Below are positions 6,941-31,964 of a stretch of 32,182 nt of DNA, in pieces. Under the pieces are notes generated by a model. That model did no database searches, was not told where the DNA came from, and saw only the letters and a list, made by a program, of their open reading frames with translations. Origin of the DNA: Candidatus Nealsonbacteria bacterium CG23_combo_of_CG06-09_8_20_14_all_40_13 (GTDB lineage: Bacteria > Patescibacteriota > UBA1384 > UBA12157_A > GCA-002773005); contig PCRM01000044.1 of the NCBI GenBank assembly GCA_002771215.1, forward strand, positions 15,713 to 47,894, read 5' to 3'. Every line of letters starts with the position of its first letter. Positions within the stretch are counted from its first letter, which is position 1. A program made the position numbers and the translations under genes.

Positions 6941-7033
6941 TTATTATTGAACCATAATACCCCTACGGGGATGAATGGTTCGATAAGAACTTGCCCGAAG
7001 GGATACTTCGCAGCTTGCTGCGAAGTAGTTCAT
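6941..7033 (-). repeat. Two-hairpin dispersed repeat, copy A, overlapping the 3' end of ruvC
   Basis: About 93 bp that is nearly identical to the copy at 31611-31713 and structurally matched by the copy at 13829-13937. Read in the ruvC direction it starts ATGAACTACTTCGCAG. It then holds a first hairpin (ACTTCGCAGC with GCTGCGAAGT), a small CCC-TTC-GGG hairpin closed by GAACT/AGTTC, and a second hairpin (CGAACCAT...ATGGTTC) capped by CCCC-GTA-GGGG. It contains no gene of its own. Its boundary falls inside the end of ruvC, so the last codons of that gene are repeat-derived. Confidence 0.85.
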
Positions 7034-13133: not shown

Positions 13134-13832
13134 ATGTTTAAATACGCGGCGGTCACTTTAATTATCGTTATGGGACTATCTTTAAGTGGGCTAAGTTGCA
13201 GCCTATTTTCACAATCCCCATCAAACACTAACAATACGCAACCTACAAGCTCTTCTGTGGGGAACTCAACTGCTTCAGGTAATCTTTTAACAACCATTAG
13301 TCCAGACCAGATAAATAGCCAAGCTGCCTCAAATTATGCCAAATCTAACCAAGAAGCTACATCCTGGCAACCAGATGCAGTATTATATGCTTTAAATATA
13401 AAACTGTCCTCTTCTCTTAAAGTCAATCAAGCGACAGAAATTTACATTTATGGTTCATCAGCAGATCCAAAAGTCTGGTATACAGTGTCTGTTAACCAAC
13501 AAACAGGCAAAGTTACGAGGGCTTGGGTCATGAAACAGGATTATATGCCGGAAATTCAAAACCAAGTTAAGATACAATACTGGAAAACAAACTATGTTGA
13601 AGCGCTACAGCAGGCTGAAAAAAATGGTGGTAAAGTTTTTAGAGATAAAAATCCCAACGCTAACATTTCCTTGACTTTATCTATCACACAACCTAAAAAT
13701 TGGCTTTGGTGGACTGTGGAATATCAAGCTTCTTTCTCTGGAGAAACCCTTAAAATTAAAGTGGATACCAACACGGGTAAAATCTACTCCGAATCAGGCG
13801 AACCGACAGACAAGGCAAGCACTAATCAATAA
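13134..13832 (+). CDS. Secreted or lipid-anchored PepSY-like protein between dnaK and dnaJ (232 aa)
   Basis: The N-terminus MFKYAAVTLIIVMGLSLSGL is a signal peptide whose hydrophobic stretch ends in SGLSC-SLFS. Cys22 could be lipidated, but the -3 and -2 residues (G, L) are not canonical for a lipobox, so a plain signal or anchor is possible. Residues 25-55 are a Ser/Thr/Asn/Pro-rich linker. The rest has two similar blocks, TVSVNQQTGKVTRAWVMK and IKVDTNTGKIYSE, separated by a helix-like ALQQAEKNGGKVF. This pattern is typical of PepSY-type domains. It starts four bases after the dnaK stop with no clear ribosome site, so it is probably translationally coupled. An envelope protein inside a chaperone operon is unusual. 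Its function is unknown. Confidence 0.7.
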   Translation: MFKYAAVTLIIVMGLSLSGLSCSLFSQSPSNTNNTQPTSSSVGNSTASGNLLTTISPDQINSQAASNYAKSNQEATSWQPDAVLYALNIKLSSSLKVNQATEIYIYGSSADPKVWYTVSVNQQTGKVTRAWVMKQDYMPEIQNQVKIQYWKTNYVEALQQAEKNGGKVFRDKNPNANISLTLSITQPKNWLWWTVEYQASFSGETLKIKVDTNTGKIYSESGEPTDKASTNQ

Positions 13833-13937
13833 ACTACTTCGCAGCAAGCTGCGGAGTATCCCCAAAGGGGCGAGTTTGTTTTTAAATAGGCTTCATCCTC
13901 GCAGCAAGCTACGAGGTATTCAGCCTCTTAAAAATAA
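13829..13937 (+). repeat. Two-hairpin dispersed repeat, copy C, between the PepSY-like gene and dnaJ
   Basis: Begins at the stop codon of the upstream gene (ATAAACTACTTCGCAG). First hairpin: ACTTCGCAGC/GCTGCGGAGT. Small hairpin CCCC-AAA-GGGG, closed by AAACT with AGTTT. Second hairpin CCTCGCAGC/GCTACGAGG, flanked by GGCT and AGCC. Compared with copy A, the closing pair changed on both sides (GAACT/AGTTC to AAACT/AGTTT) and the small stem gained one pair, so the structure rather than the exact sequence is kept. It fills nearly the whole 119-bp gap before dnaJ. Confidence 0.8.
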
Positions 13938-14650: not shown

Positions 14651-15184
14651 TTGGTAAATCTTCCGTCTTGGGATTTGTTTATCACACTTTTTTTTATTAT
14701 CGGTATTGCTTATGGATTTATTCTTCAAAAAGAAAAAATCATTGCTACGTTAGTATCTGCGTATATTGCTTTAGTGATTGTTTCTGTTTGGTCTGAAACA
14801 CTGCACAAGTTTTTCCTTGGAGAAAAAGCTGTTTTAAATCAATTATTTGTTCGCTCCAATGCCTCTCCATTTACCATCCAGGTAATTATGTTTGCGGTAA
14901 TTATTTTATTGTTATCCAGTAAAAGCGGCATTTCCGGCTCTAAAGCAAGCAAGAGCATTTTATCCCCTTTAGAATCAATAATTTATAGCTTTTTAACAAC
15001 GGCATTAATTTTGTCTTCCATCTTTTATTTCCTCCCAGCAGAGGCAAGAACGGCTTTTGCGGCACAATCTAAACTTGCCAAATTAATTATTGATTATCAT
15101 AACTGGTGGATAATGCTCCCTGTGCTATTCTTGCTTTTTACCGGATTTCGAAATGGTGGCAGCAGTAGTAGAAGCAGCGAATAA
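14651..15184 (+). CDS. Predicted four-helix inner-membrane protein of unknown function (177 aa), TTG start
   Basis: I do not recognise a named family with confidence; the layout is loosely reminiscent of CvpA-like proteins. Four membrane stretches can be read: about residues 8-25 (DLFITLFFIIGIAYGFIL), 30-47, 72-92 (FTIQVIMFAVIILLL) and 110-130 (SIIYSFLTTALILSSIFYFL). A final hydrophobic segment (WWIMLPVLFLLFTGF) may be a fifth helix. The C-terminus is a short Gly/Ser/Arg tail. The start is TTG at 14651, placed three bases after GGAGGGG; no ATG fits as well. It has its own promoter and is followed eight bases after its stop by a copy of the dispersed hairpin repeat. Expression independent of dnaJ is inferred. 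Confidence 0.65.
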   Translation: MVNLPSWDLFITLFFIIGIAYGFILQKEKIIATLVSAYIALVIVSVWSETLHKFFLGEKAVLNQLFVRSNASPFTIQVIMFAVIILLLSSKSGISGSKASKSILSPLESIIYSFLTTALILSSIFYFLPAEARTAFAAQSKLAKLIIDYHNWWIMLPVLFLLFTGFRNGGSSSRSSE

Positions 15185-15191
15185 GCGGGAG

Positions 15192-15240
15192 TAAACTACT
15201 CTGCGGCAAGCCACAGAGTATTCGGCCTCTTGAAAATAAA
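15192..15240 (+). repeat. Dispersed repeat, shortened copy E, after the membrane protein gene
   Basis: Begins TAAACTACTCTGCGGC, eight bases past the gene stop. It has one hairpin, ACTCTGCGGC/GCCACAGAGT (one C-A mismatch), followed by TATTCGGCCTCTTG and an A-rich end. This end matches the 3' end of copy C (TATTCAGCCTCTTA), so it looks like a copy in which the middle (small hairpin and second stem) has been deleted. Confidence 0.65.
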
Positions 15241-15432: not shown

Positions 15433-15507
15433 GGGCCCGTAGCTCAGTGGTAGAGCGACAGCCTTTTAAGCTGTGCGTCGCGGGTTCGATCCCCGCCGGG
15501 CCCTCCA
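15433..15507 (+). tRNA. tRNA-Lys (anticodon TTT)
   Basis: A complete cloverleaf. The acceptor GGGCCCG pairs with CGGGCCC. The D arm is GCTC-AGTGGTA-GAGC and the anticodon arm ACAGC-CTTTTAA-GCTGT puts TTT in the loop. The T arm is GCGGG-TTCGATC-CCCGC, followed by discriminator T and an encoded CCA at 15505-15507. TTT reads AAA and AAG lysine codons. The gene stands alone on the plus strand. Confidence 0.97.
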
Positions 15508-15510
15508 CAA

Positions 15511-15622
15511 TTGGTCGTTAGTCATTGGTTGTTTGTCGTTGGTCGTTAGTCATTGGTCGTTTGTCGTTGGTCGTTTGTCGTTGGTCGTTAGTCATTGGTC
15601 GTTTGTCGTTGGTGGTTTTTCA
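15511..15622 (+). repeat. 14-bp tandem repeat (two heptamers per unit), about eight copies
   Basis: Starts three bases after the tRNA CCA. Seven good units alternate between TTGGTCGTTAGTCA and TTGGTCGTTTGTCG, and an eighth is degenerate (TTGGTGGTTTTTCA). Each unit is two heptamers of pattern TTNGTCR, so it resembles short tandemly repeated heptamer families known from other genomes. There are no unique spacers, so it is not a CRISPR. The frame is open through it, but the reading is not credible as protein. Confidence 0.9.
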
Positions 15623-15649
15623 GTATCATTGAAGAAAAAAGGAAATGGA

Positions 15650-18222: not shown

Positions 18223-20844
18223 TTATGAGGGCTTACCTGCTCTCTTCTTATCTATACTTCTAAAGCACAATTGTTCTGGCACAAAAAAGAGTTCAATATC
18301 ACCGCAAGGACCATTGCGGTGTTTCCTAATTAAGATATCGGCAATATTTTTTCTTTCTGTATCTTTGTCATAATAACCCTCCCGGTAGATAAACATAACG
18401 ACATCAGCATCTTGTTCGATCGAGTTGTGCACAATGATATCATTAGCTACGAAATTGTGGCTGCCCACAACTGTGGCATCATACACTTCTTCAACTGCTA
18501 AAGGTTTAATTTCCAATATCTCGTCCCAGAAGATATCAGATTGGGCAAGATTGACTAATTTTTGATCCGGTATTGCAGTAGTAATGTGCAGCATTCTTTG
18601 GCGCGAAATGCCATTATGATATCTTTGCGTTCCCGAATAAGCCCAACCCAACTGTTGATGAAATTGGCGTGCAGTGAGAGTCCAATAAGACCGCAGCCGA
18701 TTAATTGTCTGCCAGATTTGTTTCGGAATCACGTCCAAATTGGGATTGAATTTAACTTTTTCTAAAAACCCAAGCGCTTTTTTAACCAACTTTTCTTTCT
18801 TCCCAAAAATACCAATTTGGCTTAGGAACTTCCATTGATCCTCTTTGCCGGAAATATCTACATGGTACCCTGGTTGATAGCCTTTTTTGTAACTTCTCCT
18901 TAGGCGTGCCGTGATACCAAAACGAATAAGTAAATGCGCCAATTGGCGAGCCAGCTTTTCACTTTTAGTAGCGTAATAAATGGTCCAGCCGGATTGGCTG
19001 ATATTGCAGCTGTAAGAAATCGTCCCATCGGTGGCCCAAAGATGCTTAATAAATAAGGCGAGTTTCTCTTTCGGTAGCTGAAAAATAATCTGGGGGATCA
19101 CTTTTTCACCAGATCTTTGATTGAAAATTTCTAAATCCGAGAGCCATTTCACAACCGGGTTGTGGCGGCCCCTCGCCAAGGGGTAAGGAGACGTCGTAAA
19201 AAGATGCCACCAATTCTTTTGTTTCACTAACCTGGTTTTGACTCCAAAAGCTTTTTGGGCCGCTATTTTAACTTCTTGCAGGCATAATGGATCGGCGTTG
19301 GTATATTGCAAAGAATGATTTTTAAGATAGCAACCATCGCCAATCAGGTGCGCTAAAACAATAATCTTTTCATCTTCTAAATTTTCTCGCCCTTGATAGG
19401 ATAGTTCTCGCGGTACCGCCAAATGTTCACCTATCTTTAATTGATCAAGTCTCTTCCAGCCCAAAATGGTGTAAAAAGGATGATTAGCCGAAGCGTTGAT
19501 TTCTTTGCCCGAGGCTAAGCGTAGTTTGTAGACCTTTTTTCGGCCCGATGGAAAAGCTTTGACCATCATCTGCCGCTCAAGCTTCAATCCCTCCCTTAAG
19601 CTGAGAACGGGAATTGCTATTTTTTTCTTGGCCAACTCTTTAATCGTGAAAAGCTTACCGGTATGAGCATGCATAATTTGAGTATTGCCGGTTAAACAAC
19701 CACTTTCCCTCAAGTCCGCCAGTTGGGGTCTTTTGCCCGGACGCATTTCAACTGCCCGTGAAAGTTGTGAAAGGGCTAATACGGGAACATTCAGTTCTCT
19801 GGCCAACGCCTTCAGCGCCCGCGATATCTCAGAAACTTCCGCAACTCGATTGTCGCTAGATTTTTGGCTACCAGCCATCAACTGAAGATAATCTATGACT
19901 ATCAAGCCAATTTTACTCTCAAGTTGCAATCGGCGCGCCTTGGTACGAATTTCCGTAACATTCAATAGTGGTGAGTCGTCAATAAAAATTGGCGCTTCAG
20001 ATAAAACACCCATGGCATAGCCAATTTTAGGAAAATCTTCGTCAGTTAAATTACCGGTACGCAACTTCCAAGAATCAAGGCCTGATTGAGAACAGATTAA
20101 TCTGTCCACTAGCTGCTCTTTGCTCATCTCCAGAGAAAATATTCCAACTGGCACTTTTTCTTTGACTGAGGCGTTTAGGGCAATATTCAACGCCAAGGAG
20201 GATTTACCCATCGAAGGTCGAGACGCTAAAATGATTAAATCGGATTGCTGTAGTCCCGCCAACAGGTTATCTAGGTCAGCAAAACCCGTAGGGACACCGC
20301 GCAACATGCTTTTATTTTTAGAAAGCTTATCTATTCTCTCAAATGACTCGGTTAGAACATCTTTAATCGGGATGAAATTCTCTTGCAAAAAGGACTGTGA
20401 AACCGAAAATAACTCCGATTCGGCTTTGTCTAAAACTTTTTCCACATCTTCTGCCTCTTGAAAACCAAATTCTGCTATCTTAGAGGCAGCAGAAATAAGT
20501 CGGCGCAAAACCGATTTTTGCTGAATTATTTGGGCATAATGAGCCACGTGAGCGGCGGTGGGCACAGAATTTACCAAAGAAGTCAAATAGCTTGCCCCGC
20601 CGACATCTTTTAATTTCTTTTCTCTTTCTAATTCATCGGTCAAAGTTACCAGGTCAATTGGAGAACGCTTCTGGTAGAGCTTGAGCATCGCTTGATAAAT
20701 TTGGGCGTGGTCGTTGCGATAAAAGTCAGCGGGAATAATAATATCCGCTACCTTCACAATAGCGTTTTTATCAAGCAAAATAGCGCCCAAAACTGACTGT
20801 TCGGCTTCAACATTTTGTGGTGGAAGTTTGACGCCGTCACTCAT
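18223..20844 (-). CDS. dnaB: Replicative DNA helicase DnaB with an in-frame intein (873 aa precursor)
   Basis: Hexameric helicase that unwinds the replication fork. The N-terminal domain begins LPPQNVEAEQSVLGAILLDK. The RecA-like domain has Walker A SRPSMGKSS (about 208-216), LIVIDYLQLM (Walker B) and LSQLSRAVE with RPQLADLRESG. An intein of 425 residues (383-807) interrupts the protein after RESG. The chain resumes at SIEQDADVVMFIYRE and ends with the normal helicase tail. Removing the intein gives 448 residues, the usual DnaB length. I start at the ATG at 20844, preceded by GAGGAG and overlapping the dnaX stop by eight bases. A TTG at 20862 would add six residues. It follows dnaX, suggesting a small replication operon. 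Confidence 0.95.
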   Translation of the reverse strand: MSDGVKLPPQNVEAEQSVLGAILLDKNAIVKVADIIIPADFYRNDHAQIYQAMLKLYQKRSPIDLVTLTDELEREKKLKDVGGASYLTSLVNSVPTAAHVAHYAQIIQQKSVLRRLISAASKIAEFGFQEAEDVEKVLDKAESELFSVSQSFLQENFIPIKDVLTESFERIDKLSKNKSMLRGVPTGFADLDNLLAGLQQSDLIILASRPSMGKSSLALNIALNASVKEKVPVGIFSLEMSKEQLVDRLICSQSGLDSWKLRTGNLTDEDFPKIGYAMGVLSEAPIFIDDSPLLNVTEIRTKARRLQLESKIGLIVIDYLQLMAGSQKSSDNRVAEVSEISRALKALARELNVPVLALSQLSRAVEMRPGKRPQLADLRESGCLTGNTQIMHAHTGKLFTIKELAKKKIAIPVLSLREGLKLERQMMVKAFPSGRKKVYKLRLASGKEINASANHPFYTILGWKRLDQLKIGEHLAVPRELSYQGRENLEDEKIIVLAHLIGDGCYLKNHSLQYTNADPLCLQEVKIAAQKAFGVKTRLVKQKNWWHLFTTSPYPLARGRHNPVVKWLSDLEIFNQRSGEKVIPQIIFQLPKEKLALFIKHLWATDGTISYSCNISQSGWTIYYATKSEKLARQLAHLLIRFGITARLRRSYKKGYQPGYHVDISGKEDQWKFLSQIGIFGKKEKLVKKALGFLEKVKFNPNLDVIPKQIWQTINRLRSYWTLTARQFHQQLGWAYSGTQRYHNGISRQRMLHITTAIPDQKLVNLAQSDIFWDEILEIKPLAVEEVYDATVVGSHNFVANDIIVHNSIEQDADVVMFIYREGYYDKDTERKNIADILIRKHRNGPCGDIELFFVPEQLCFRSIDKKRAGKPS
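18424..19698 (-). mobile_element. DnaB intein (425 aa) with LAGLIDADG homing endonuclease
   Basis: The self-splicing insert begins CLTGNTQIMHAHTGKLFTI (block A, Cys1) and ends VYDATVVGSHNFVANDIIVH-N (blocks F and G). It has the penultimate His and terminal Asn, followed by Ser as the +1 extein residue. Block B is ASANHPFYTILGW with its conserved His. Two endonuclease helices are visible, LAHLIGDGCYL and IKHLWATDGTISY, each with an Asp at the catalytic place. All splicing residues are present, so activity is expected. The insertion point RESG/SIEQ is the same conserved site used by the cyanobacterial Ssp DnaB intein. This is a homing mobile element that inserts at a fixed helicase site. Confidence 0.94.
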
Positions 20845-22339
20845 CCTGCTCCTCAACTCCAAAAAGGTCTTTGGCAGAAAGAAGCATATCTTCTTCCTCC
20901 TGTTTTATCTTTTCTTTATCCAATAAGATACAATCAATTAATAGGTCTCTCCCCAGAACTTGGCTTAAAGTTTGCTCTATTATAACACGGTTTTGGTGTT
21001 GCAAAATTTTCTCTTTATGAAACTTAAATTGCGCGGCCAAAACCAATTTATTCTCTTCAATAATAACCGGCTTGGCATCTTTGAGTAAAGCAAAAAGCGA
21101 ATGATTATGAGGTTTGATACCATTTAAAATCTTCTCCCATAAAACAGGGTTGATATTTTGCTCTGTTGCTTTTTGATAAGGAGTCTTCCTGTCTGCAGCC
21201 GCATCTGAAATATTTGAAGTTTCTTTATTGGCAGTAACCTTTAAAATATCCTGACCTAATAGTAATTGAGATTTGGCAATGGCCAGTTCTAAAGGCAGTT
21301 GAAGAATAAAACTTGTCTTAATCTGCGATTGACTTTCCAAAAATAGATTGGCCAAAGCTAAAATTTTATCAGGCGCAATAGCTTGGGCTTTTTTGACAAT
21401 CTCTGTTAAATTTTCATCTTCTTGCTCAAAATTGGTCTGCGCGCCCATCTTTAACAAAAGTATTCGGCGCAACGCTGAAACAACCATCTGGTTGAAATTT
21501 AAAAAATCTATACCTTGAACAAATAATTCTTCAATTAAATCAAAAGATTTGTCTTGCTTGCTCTGAAAAATATAACCGATTAACTGGTAGACAGATTCCC
21601 ATTTGCCCAATCCCAAAGCGGCACGAATCTCTTTAACACTAATTTCTTTGTTTTGAGTCAGATTTAAAGATTTTATCTGGTCTAAAATGGAAATGGCATC
21701 ACGAAAAGCGCCGTCTGAAAGGCTAGCAATTAAATTTAGGCCTTCGGAAGAAATTTTAAAATCTTCTTCTTTGGCAATTTTGGACAAAAGCTGGACAATT
21801 TCTTTAATTTTGGCCCTTTTGAAATCAAACTGCTGGCAACGGGAGAGAATAGTCGCCGGCACTTTGTGCGCTTCAGTAGTTGCCAAAATAAAAATTACGT
21901 GGGCGGGTGGCTCTTCCAAAGTTTTCAACAGCGCATTAAATGCTTCGCGGGTAAGCATATGGCATTCATCAATAATAATTACCTTATATTTACCTAAACT
22001 GGGGGCAAATTTTACTTTTTCGCGCAATTCCCTCACCTCATCAATTCCGCGGTTAGACGCGGCGTCAATTTCAATTAAATCCAAACTCTTGCCGGAAATT
22101 ATCTCCACGCAACTTTGACATTTATTGCATGGTTCGGCTTTGCCTTTCTGACAATTGAAAGCTTTAGCCAAAATTCTGGCGACGGTTGTTTTACCCGTAC
22201 CTTTAGGCCCGGCAAATAAATACGCGTGCGAAATTCGACCACTCTCCAAAGCCGACACCAGCACTTTCTTGATGTGGTCCTGAGAGTGAACATCTTTAAA
22301 TTTTTGGGGTCTGTATTTACGATATAAAGAGAGTGACAT
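20837..22339 (-). CDS. dnaX: DNA polymerase III gamma/tau subunit DnaX (500 aa)
   Basis: Clamp-loader ATPase of the replisome. It opens SLYRKYRPQKFKDVHSQDHI. Walker A is GPKGTGKTT (44-52), a zinc module uses C63, C71, C74 and C77 (CNKCQSCVEI), and VIIIDECHMLTREAFNALLK supplies Walker B. LATTEAHKVPATILSRCQQF carries sensor 1 and the arginine finger. Domain III follows with ISILDQIKSL. The C-terminal third is less conserved, with FAL-LKDAKPVIIEENKLVLAAQFKFH, and ends in an acidic tail. Length fits a tau-like form without a long extension. The start at 22339 has AAGG eight bases upstream and a promoter about 20 bp away. dnaB overlaps its stop. Confidence 0.95.
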   Translation of the reverse strand: MSLSLYRKYRPQKFKDVHSQDHIKKVLVSALESGRISHAYLFAGPKGTGKTTVARILAKAFNCQKGKAEPCNKCQSCVEIISGKSLDLIEIDAASNRGIDEVRELREKVKFAPSLGKYKVIIIDECHMLTREAFNALLKTLEEPPAHVIFILATTEAHKVPATILSRCQQFDFKRAKIKEIVQLLSKIAKEEDFKISSEGLNLIASLSDGAFRDAISILDQIKSLNLTQNKEISVKEIRAALGLGKWESVYQLIGYIFQSKQDKSFDLIEELFVQGIDFLNFNQMVVSALRRILLLKMGAQTNFEQEDENLTEIVKKAQAIAPDKILALANLFLESQSQIKTSFILQLPLELAIAKSQLLLGQDILKVTANKETSNISDAAADRKTPYQKATEQNINPVLWEKILNGIKPHNHSLFALLKDAKPVIIEENKLVLAAQFKFHKEKILQHQNRVIIEQTLSQVLGRDLLIDCILLDKEKIKQEEEDMLLSAKDLFGVEEQDE

Positions 22340-31610: not shown

Positions 31611-31713
31611 TTATTATTGAACCAGAATACCACGTCAGCTTGCTGCGGGGATGAATGATTCGATAAGAACTTGCCCGCAGGGATACTTCGCAGCTTGCTG
31701 CGAAGTAGTTCAT
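31611..31713 (-). repeat. Two-hairpin dispersed repeat, copy B, at the 3' end of the coiled-coil gene
   Basis: Nearly identical to copy A over about 90 bp. The difference is in the second hairpin, where B has CCGCAGCAAGCTGACGTGG and A has the shorter CCCC-GTA-GGGG. The edge reads ATGAACTACTTCGCAG on the minus strand, and the TGA in it is the stop codon of the neighbouring gene. The remaining gap to the response regulator (31556-31610) shows nothing but AT-rich sequence. Confidence 0.88.
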
Positions 31714-31964
31714 TTCTTGCTGAAAATTTTCTCCAACTTTTCCACCCGTTGTTCAAGCGCTAAAAACTCCGACCTTCTGACCATTTCTGTCATATGAAAT
31801 TTTATTTCCGTAACATCTTTTTCAAGACCGCTCAATCTTTTATTCACAGAGTGAAACCCATCGATCATTTTTTTATTCATCTCAACAAAATTTTTCCCCA
31901 TCTCCAAAAACCCTTGTTGAGTCATTCTTGCCAAATCTTCAAGTTCAATTTTTTTCTTTGCCAT
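31710..31964 (-). CDS. Small coiled-coil protein of unknown function (84 aa)
   Basis: Almost entirely heptad-like: ARMTQQGFLEMGKNFVEMNK, then MIDGFHSVNKRLSGLEKDVT and LALEQRVEKLEKIFSKK, with basic ends. No membrane helix or signal is seen. Such short coiled-coil proteins next to PIN-domain genes are frequent in CPR genomes, but a function is not known to me. GAGG lies four to five bases before the ATG. The stop is supplied by the edge of the dispersed repeat, and the frame ends cleanly there. Confidence 0.7.
   Translation of the reverse strand: MAKKKIELEDLARMTQQGFLEMGKNFVEMNKKMIDGFHSVNKRLSGLEKDVTEIKFHMTEMVRRSEFLALEQRVEKLEKIFSKK

Follow-up and report, generated by a model that had tools for sequence, protein, structure and literature searches.

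How do four copies of a short two-hairpin repeat come to stand next to gene 3' ends in one stretch of 32,182 nucleotides (the window) from a Patescibacteria genome? A first-pass annotation had noticed the copies at 6941-7033 (-), 13829-13937 (+), 15192-15240 (+, shortened) and 31611-31713 (-), had described them as a succession of hairpin I, CCC/GGG mini-hairpin, closing pair, hairpin II and A-rich end, and had considered an mRNA 3'-end stabiliser or processing site, a REP/BIME-like element moved by a RAYT-type transposase, and an uptake or recombination sequence. The four copies are present, with their parts in the order claimed. The analysis leads to the view that the repeat is very probably a non-autonomous, PATE-like element of the IS200/IS605 type, apparently inserted 3' of the tetranucleotide TTAT.

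Copies in the window and in the host genome

The host genome (G000) is a Patescibacteria MAG of 654 kb (94% complete, 46 contigs), in which pattern and covariance searches recovered approximately 10 copies, a tally that may miss more degenerate ones. Four copies, three full and one a 45-bp remnant, are located in the window, one more at comEA on the window's contig (C20:10364), two on C11 and one each on C9, C26 (rearranged) and C25 (short); full copies span 89-105 nt. Close relatives of G000 were not found by DNA pattern, and the nearest genomes compared share its class only.

The window copies belong to two subfamilies, w7 and w31 with GAACT..AGTTC and w13 and w15 with AAACT..AGTTT. Copy w7 (subfamily A, 89 nt, 6945-7033, minus strand) has lost the tip of hairpin II and enters ruvC in frame, by which RuvC gains a 23-residue tail NELLRSKLRSIPSGKFLSNHSSP that ends at a TAG in the hairpin II loop; alignment of the ends places its putative target tetranucleotide, ATAA in gene sense and TTAT in insertion sequence (IS) orientation, at 6941-6944 (-), adjoining the left end of the copy. 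In w13 (subfamily B, 105 nt, 13829-13933, plus strand) the element opens with A|TAA, which serves as stop codon for the ORF 13134-13832, and the putative target ATAA occupies 13934-13937 (+). Equally, A|TGA of w31 (subfamily A, 99 nt, 31615-31713, minus strand) is the stop codon of the ORF 31710-31964 (-), with a putative target ATAA (in sense) at 31611-31614 (-). The terminal-only remnant w15 (45 nt, 15191-15235, plus strand), in which the 5' half of hairpin I is fused to the 3' half of hairpin II, lies 8 nt past the stop of the ORF 14651-15184 and is followed by a putative target ATAA at 15236-15239 (+). A third subfamily in G000, on C9, has quite different hairpin letters (CCCCGTCCC/GGGACGGGG). 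The locus on C26 (L009, 14621-14851) is a composite of two tandem, rearranged element copies, broken up by further GTCGGC/CTTCGG palindromes as nested insertions.

Structure and covariation

The full window copies fold far better than their shuffles (z of -6.3, -4.8 and -2.9). In an alignment of 23 copies from six genomes, G000 and five others of its class, 94% of the cells are paired, 14 of 17 pairs show two-sided changes, and the covariation score of 0.510 compares with 0.194 ± 0.018 upon shuffling (none of 500 shuffles reaches the score) and with at most 0.165 when one strand is slid. The compensatory arm changes initially read from the window find covariation well beyond chance over the 23 copies, but within the four window copies they amount to approximately one event, as these split into two subfamilies. 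That the structure is conserved holds, with mobility as its likely reason, and the transposase suspected at the outset belongs to the correct enzyme class, Y1/HUH. An Rfam scan of the window returned a tRNA alone, with no family match of the repeat at gathering score.

An end in common with IS200/IS605 insertion sequences

Evidence on the origin of the repeat comes from its hairpin-I end, which a scan of a genome collection found in at least 116 stretches distributed over Deltaproteobacteria, Nitrospirota, Bacteroidetes, Firmicutes, Endozoicomonas, Omnitrophota and Patescibacteria. In sense, the common end reads AATGAA-CTAC-hairpin-GTATC, with conservation dropping sharply outside AATGAA (113/115). 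Down to the terminal TTCAT this matches the right end of IS200/IS605-family ISs, and in a number of foreign stretches it adjoins the 3' end of an IS200 tnpA gene of approximately 150 aa. The TnpA behind the shared end reaches 132 bits with the IS200/IS605 model NF033573 (cut-off 55) and just 23 bits with REP_Tyr_transpos (cut-off 80), and by these models is not a RAYT. IS200-type TnpAs of Patescibacteria come with a right end of the same kind, more diverged. Furthermore, the covariance model R2, built from tnpA-less elements only, also recognises the right ends of four ISs that carry tnpA (G136, G158, G199 and G220); tnpA and the elements co-occur (P = 0.002), partly since R2 matches the tnpA-bearing ISs themselves.

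With an IS200-type right end, a left end with a hairpin of its own and nothing in between, the element has the anatomy of a PATE (palindrome-associated transposable element). Laid out as a transposon, opposite to gene sense, it reads TTAT|T-ATTGAACC-AGAATA-hairpin II-...-GATAC-hairpin I-GTAGTTCAT|, where the bars delimit the element, and with a length range of 45-164 nt it is too short for a transposase gene. The search for a tnpA with matching ends in G000 found none; the resident IS200-type TnpA (L007, C38:32709-33077, 138 aa) has its own hairpin ends (CCCCACCGC../CCCCAATGC..), which differ from those of the element, and was rejected as parent. No Y1 transposase above threshold was detected in the copy-rich genomes G018 (79% complete) and G186 (100% complete), no autonomous IS with the left end of the element (TTATT...GAATACC) was seen, and a plasmid BLAST search gave no matches. 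It is the end of the element that points to an IS200-type mover, which was not found beside the copies in G000, G018 and G186.

A second type of MITE (L029, L038, L040, L048 and others; MAG JACRML) has the same right end and the left end GATTAAA (TTTAAT in IS orientation); one of its copies is located at the TAA stop of a gene resembling ruvB.

Position relative to genes and stop codons

The repeat had been said to abut gene 3' ends always and in sense. All four window copies are in sense and near 3' ends, but w7 differs in phase, leaving the ruvC frame open for 23 codons up to a stop in its shortened hairpin II, and the genome contains copies antisense to the adjoining genes (C11:17921 and C26), an intergenic copy (C11:26808) and one in frame within a gene (C9:34809). 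Every clear left end adjoins ATAA in gene sense (TTAT in IS orientation). When the flanks are joined at X|ATAA, w13 gives ..CAA TAA, w31 ..AAG AAA TAA and the comEA copy ..ACG ATA TAA, that is, in 3/3 clean cases the C-terminus comes out identical and is followed by a TAA stop once the element is removed in silico, since the terminal bases of the element itself provide A|TGA or A|TAA in an unchanged register.

Among the copies of the genome itself, its class and its phylum, 17/71 close an ORF of 80 codons or more precisely with A|TRA, as compared with 2.8% of the AT[GA]AA sites that this DNA contains (p = 9e-12). Measured against a noncoding-plus-stop background, which has 17% of its sites in stop register, the difference has p = 0.09, and no active choice of stop codons is called for; target sequence and selection suffice. 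On contig C20, in-frame stops account for 10 of 854 ATAA sites, versus approximately 4 of the 10 genome copies, and of the foreign copies of the hairpin-I end only about 9/115 are located at a sense stop. Position and orientation across the genome are hence neither random nor fixed: a stop-codon bias exists, roughly as large as insertion at ATAA (in many cases itself a stop codon) and loss of gene-damaging insertions would together produce.

In-frame copies inside protein genes

Approximately 10 copies reside in frame and in sense inside genes. They interrupt the genes for the RmlC-like epimerase in G000 (C9), MiaB, TsaD, a UvrD-type helicase and MnmA in G018, TopA in G004, RelA/SpoT and a UvrD/PD-(D/E)XK protein in G002, a membrane protein in G269 and a glycosyltransferase-like protein in G145. 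Translation of these inserts would add approximately 33-42 residues, as predicted from the reading frames. The residues are missing in PDB homologues (143->188 versus 128->130 in TsaD, 217->266 versus 223->232 in MiaB and 197->254 versus 228->245 in TopA). Equally, MiaB, TsaD and UvrD are uninterrupted in G004 where G018, a member of the same genus, has the insert, and TopA is uninterrupted in G018 where G004 has it. Base-exact empty sites were sought for the in-gene copies in same-genus orthologues, in which the junction sequence is too diverged, and among foreign loci, where the matches were ends of other repeats and no true empty site.

In-frame copies are mostly 3n long with two open sense phases, while the third phase meets a stop immediately. 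Lengths of 3n are over-represented, amounting to 28/39 distinct lengths per genome with the start positions of eight copies corrected by hand (p = 1e-6), to 26/42 without this correction (p = 1.4e-4) and to 23/34 with corrected starts and the in-gene copies left out (p = 4.5e-5), all p-values being optimistic owing to shared ancestry.

Two loci show further features. At L236 (G082 C30:3147-3278) an antisense element is nevertheless in frame within a 584-codon membrane-protein ORF, and at L240 (G145 C49) the C-terminus of the insert-bearing ORF contains tandem copies of another repeat, ENASLKASRYRKAPQCSGTALASRQRDKSPP.

Distribution in Patescibacteria

With the model R2, the family was identified in 52/379 Patescibacteria genomes. 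G186 harbours nine near-identical copies of 102 nt with ATAA junctions (L271-L279), and this near-identity suggests recent movement; these copies possess 12-bp terminal inverted repeats (CCAGCACCTTCC..GGAAGGTGCTGG), whereas the G000 copies have none of note. Literature searches, which covered open-licence papers, brought up no description of elements of this kind from Patescibacteria.

Proposed mechanism and alternative explanations

In the mechanism proposed here, an IS200-type Y1 HUH transposase acting in trans would recognise both hairpins on single-stranded DNA, excise the element and paste it 3' of TTAT without target duplication, with TTAT presumably chosen by base pairing with the guide AATA at the foot of the left hairpin. 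Since TTAT reads ATAA on the gene strand, TAA stop codons often qualify as targets, and as the element end ATGAA/ATAAA re-creates a stop in the same register, the protein stays unchanged. In many elements the other two sense phases are open and the length is 3n, so that some copies are in frame in protein genes.

The suggestion that a RAYT (TnpA_REP) moves the repeat as a REP/BIME-type element (REPIN) was not without reason. Y1 RAYT-like genes occur in G000 (C37) and in many relatives, two RAYTs are located near elements, palindromes stand near gene ends and CTAC/GTAG is found at the hairpin foot in some copies. The gene asked for is thus present in G000, together with the IS200-type TnpA on C38, but the termini of both are unlike those of the element. 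RAYTs inspected in G000 (C37), G021 and G036 carry their own, different terminal palindromes, GTAG sits at the 3' foot and is missing in other subfamilies, copy number is low, arrays of inverted pairs were not seen, and the same end occurs behind IS200/IS605-type TnpAs that fit the RAYT model poorly; we consider movement by a RAYT very unlikely. Somewhat less improbable, yet still unlikely, is a protein-coding palindromic element of the Rickettsia type (RPE) with some non-IS200 mechanism as its mover. The size is the same, RPEs equally insert in frame in conserved genes with the coding phase kept, and copy-rich genomes without a Y1 transposase would fit; against it, the right end is common to IS200-type ISs down to the terminal nucleotides. 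RPE-like behaviour and IS200 origin may, on the other hand, both be true at once.

Stable RNA folds, real covariation and the sense orientation of the four window copies at 3' ends make an mRNA 3'-end stabiliser or processing signal, kept by selection at gene ends, a natural proposal. A T-run or U-tract is, however, absent, antisense, intergenic and in-frame in-gene copies exist, hairpins recognised by a transposase would covary just as well, and with a stop-register rate close to the noncoding-plus-stop background nothing calls for selection on a 3'-end role, so that a dedicated device of this kind appears highly improbable. That in-gene copies are removed at the RNA or protein level (intron-like, by bypass or intein-like) and are absent from the final protein would agree with the strong hairpins and with their location in genes of conserved proteins, but two of the three sense phases stay open, a feature for which RNA-level removal would have no use, a known intron or intein motif was not noticed, and the Rfam scan recognised nothing of the sort in the window; this is the explanation we would least expect to hold, next to negligible in our estimate. 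An uptake or recombination sequence is spoken against by approximately 10 copies in 654 kb; together with an attC-like site it was set aside, as housekeeping genes stand on both sides of so few copies.

Comparison with known systems

An IS200/IS605-derived mini-element finds its closest counterparts in the PATEs of Haloquadratum, which, as described in the accessible text of PMC3119063, are likewise too short for a transposase and possess subterminal IS605-like palindromes and a conserved terminal oligonucleotide. These PATEs include 52-bp terminal-only forms with a core deletion, the same deletion as seen in the hairpin fusions of w15 and of the C25 copy, and pose the same puzzle of apparent mobility with intact IS200 transposases being scarce (PMC3119063). 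Unlike PATEs as portrayed in that text, the Patescibacteria element has a bacterial host, ends in stop register, repeated in-frame insertion in genes and an excess of 3n lengths. With the ISs IS608 and ISDra2 it shares subterminal hairpins at both asymmetric ends and, apparently, insertion 3' of a short fixed target (PMC5934647); it differs in the lack of an internal tnpA or tnpB, in the target TTAT and in that no cognate transposase was found in G000. IS608 keeps its target tetranucleotide TTAC as part of the left flank, and recognition of this TTAC falls to a guide on the 5' side of the left hairpin's foot (PMC5934647); AATA at the hairpin foot of the element would be compatible with TTAT as a guide of this type. 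REP/BIME/REPIN sequences with their RAYTs resemble the element by palindromes near genes and Y1-class transposases in the genome (PMC8266576, PMC3733652), whereas the element is an asymmetric two-hairpin unit with fixed ends, low in copy number and not flanking the inspected RAYTs.

In-frame mobile DNA in conserved proteins is, as far as the accessible accounts reach, best known from Rickettsia and Wolbachia. RPEs (105-146 bp, inserted in frame in conserved genes; PMC2229807) and their Wolbachia counterparts are mobile palindromes of approximately 100-150 bp that occur in frame in conserved genes and between genes (PMC2229807, PMC10969869), and the available text of these reviews names no transposase. 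The host phylum is another and the end of the Patescibacteria element is recognisably of the IS200/IS605 type; the likeness is one of behaviour. Such a family has now been found across a major bacterial radiation of very small genomes, and the element is almost harmless to genes, with its own stop at a stop codon or in frame inside well-conserved proteins. A testable mechanism is offered by single-strand peel-and-paste with a TTAT-targeting guide, and the stop-codon sites find a reason in that target and element end would each contain a stop, in one and the same register. The natural insertions of 33-42 residues in TsaD, MiaB and TopA equally constitute a ready set for the study of protein tolerance, and the family offers a starting point for explaining how selfish DNA within proteins might be mobilised. 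We tentatively put forward a wider idea, which is possible though rather doubtful as a whole: Patescibacteria might host IS200/IS605-derived mini-elements that have evolved to be protein-safe, by cleavage sites that double as stop codons in the matching register, by keeping two sense phases open and by 3n lengths, and that could so have spread through genomes of very high density, both at stop codons and within genes for conserved proteins, with the protein-coding palindromes of the Rickettsia type perhaps moving by the same single-strand mechanism.

Other observations in the window

Apart from the repeat, the window encodes at 18223-20862 (-) the replicative helicase DnaB with an intein (Pfam Intein_splicing at residues 404-813; LAGLIDADG_3). 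Just past a tRNA gene (15433-15504), a 14-bp tandem repeat of the TTGGTCGTTTGTC(G/A) type with approximately 8 units is located within an ORF at 15496-15635.
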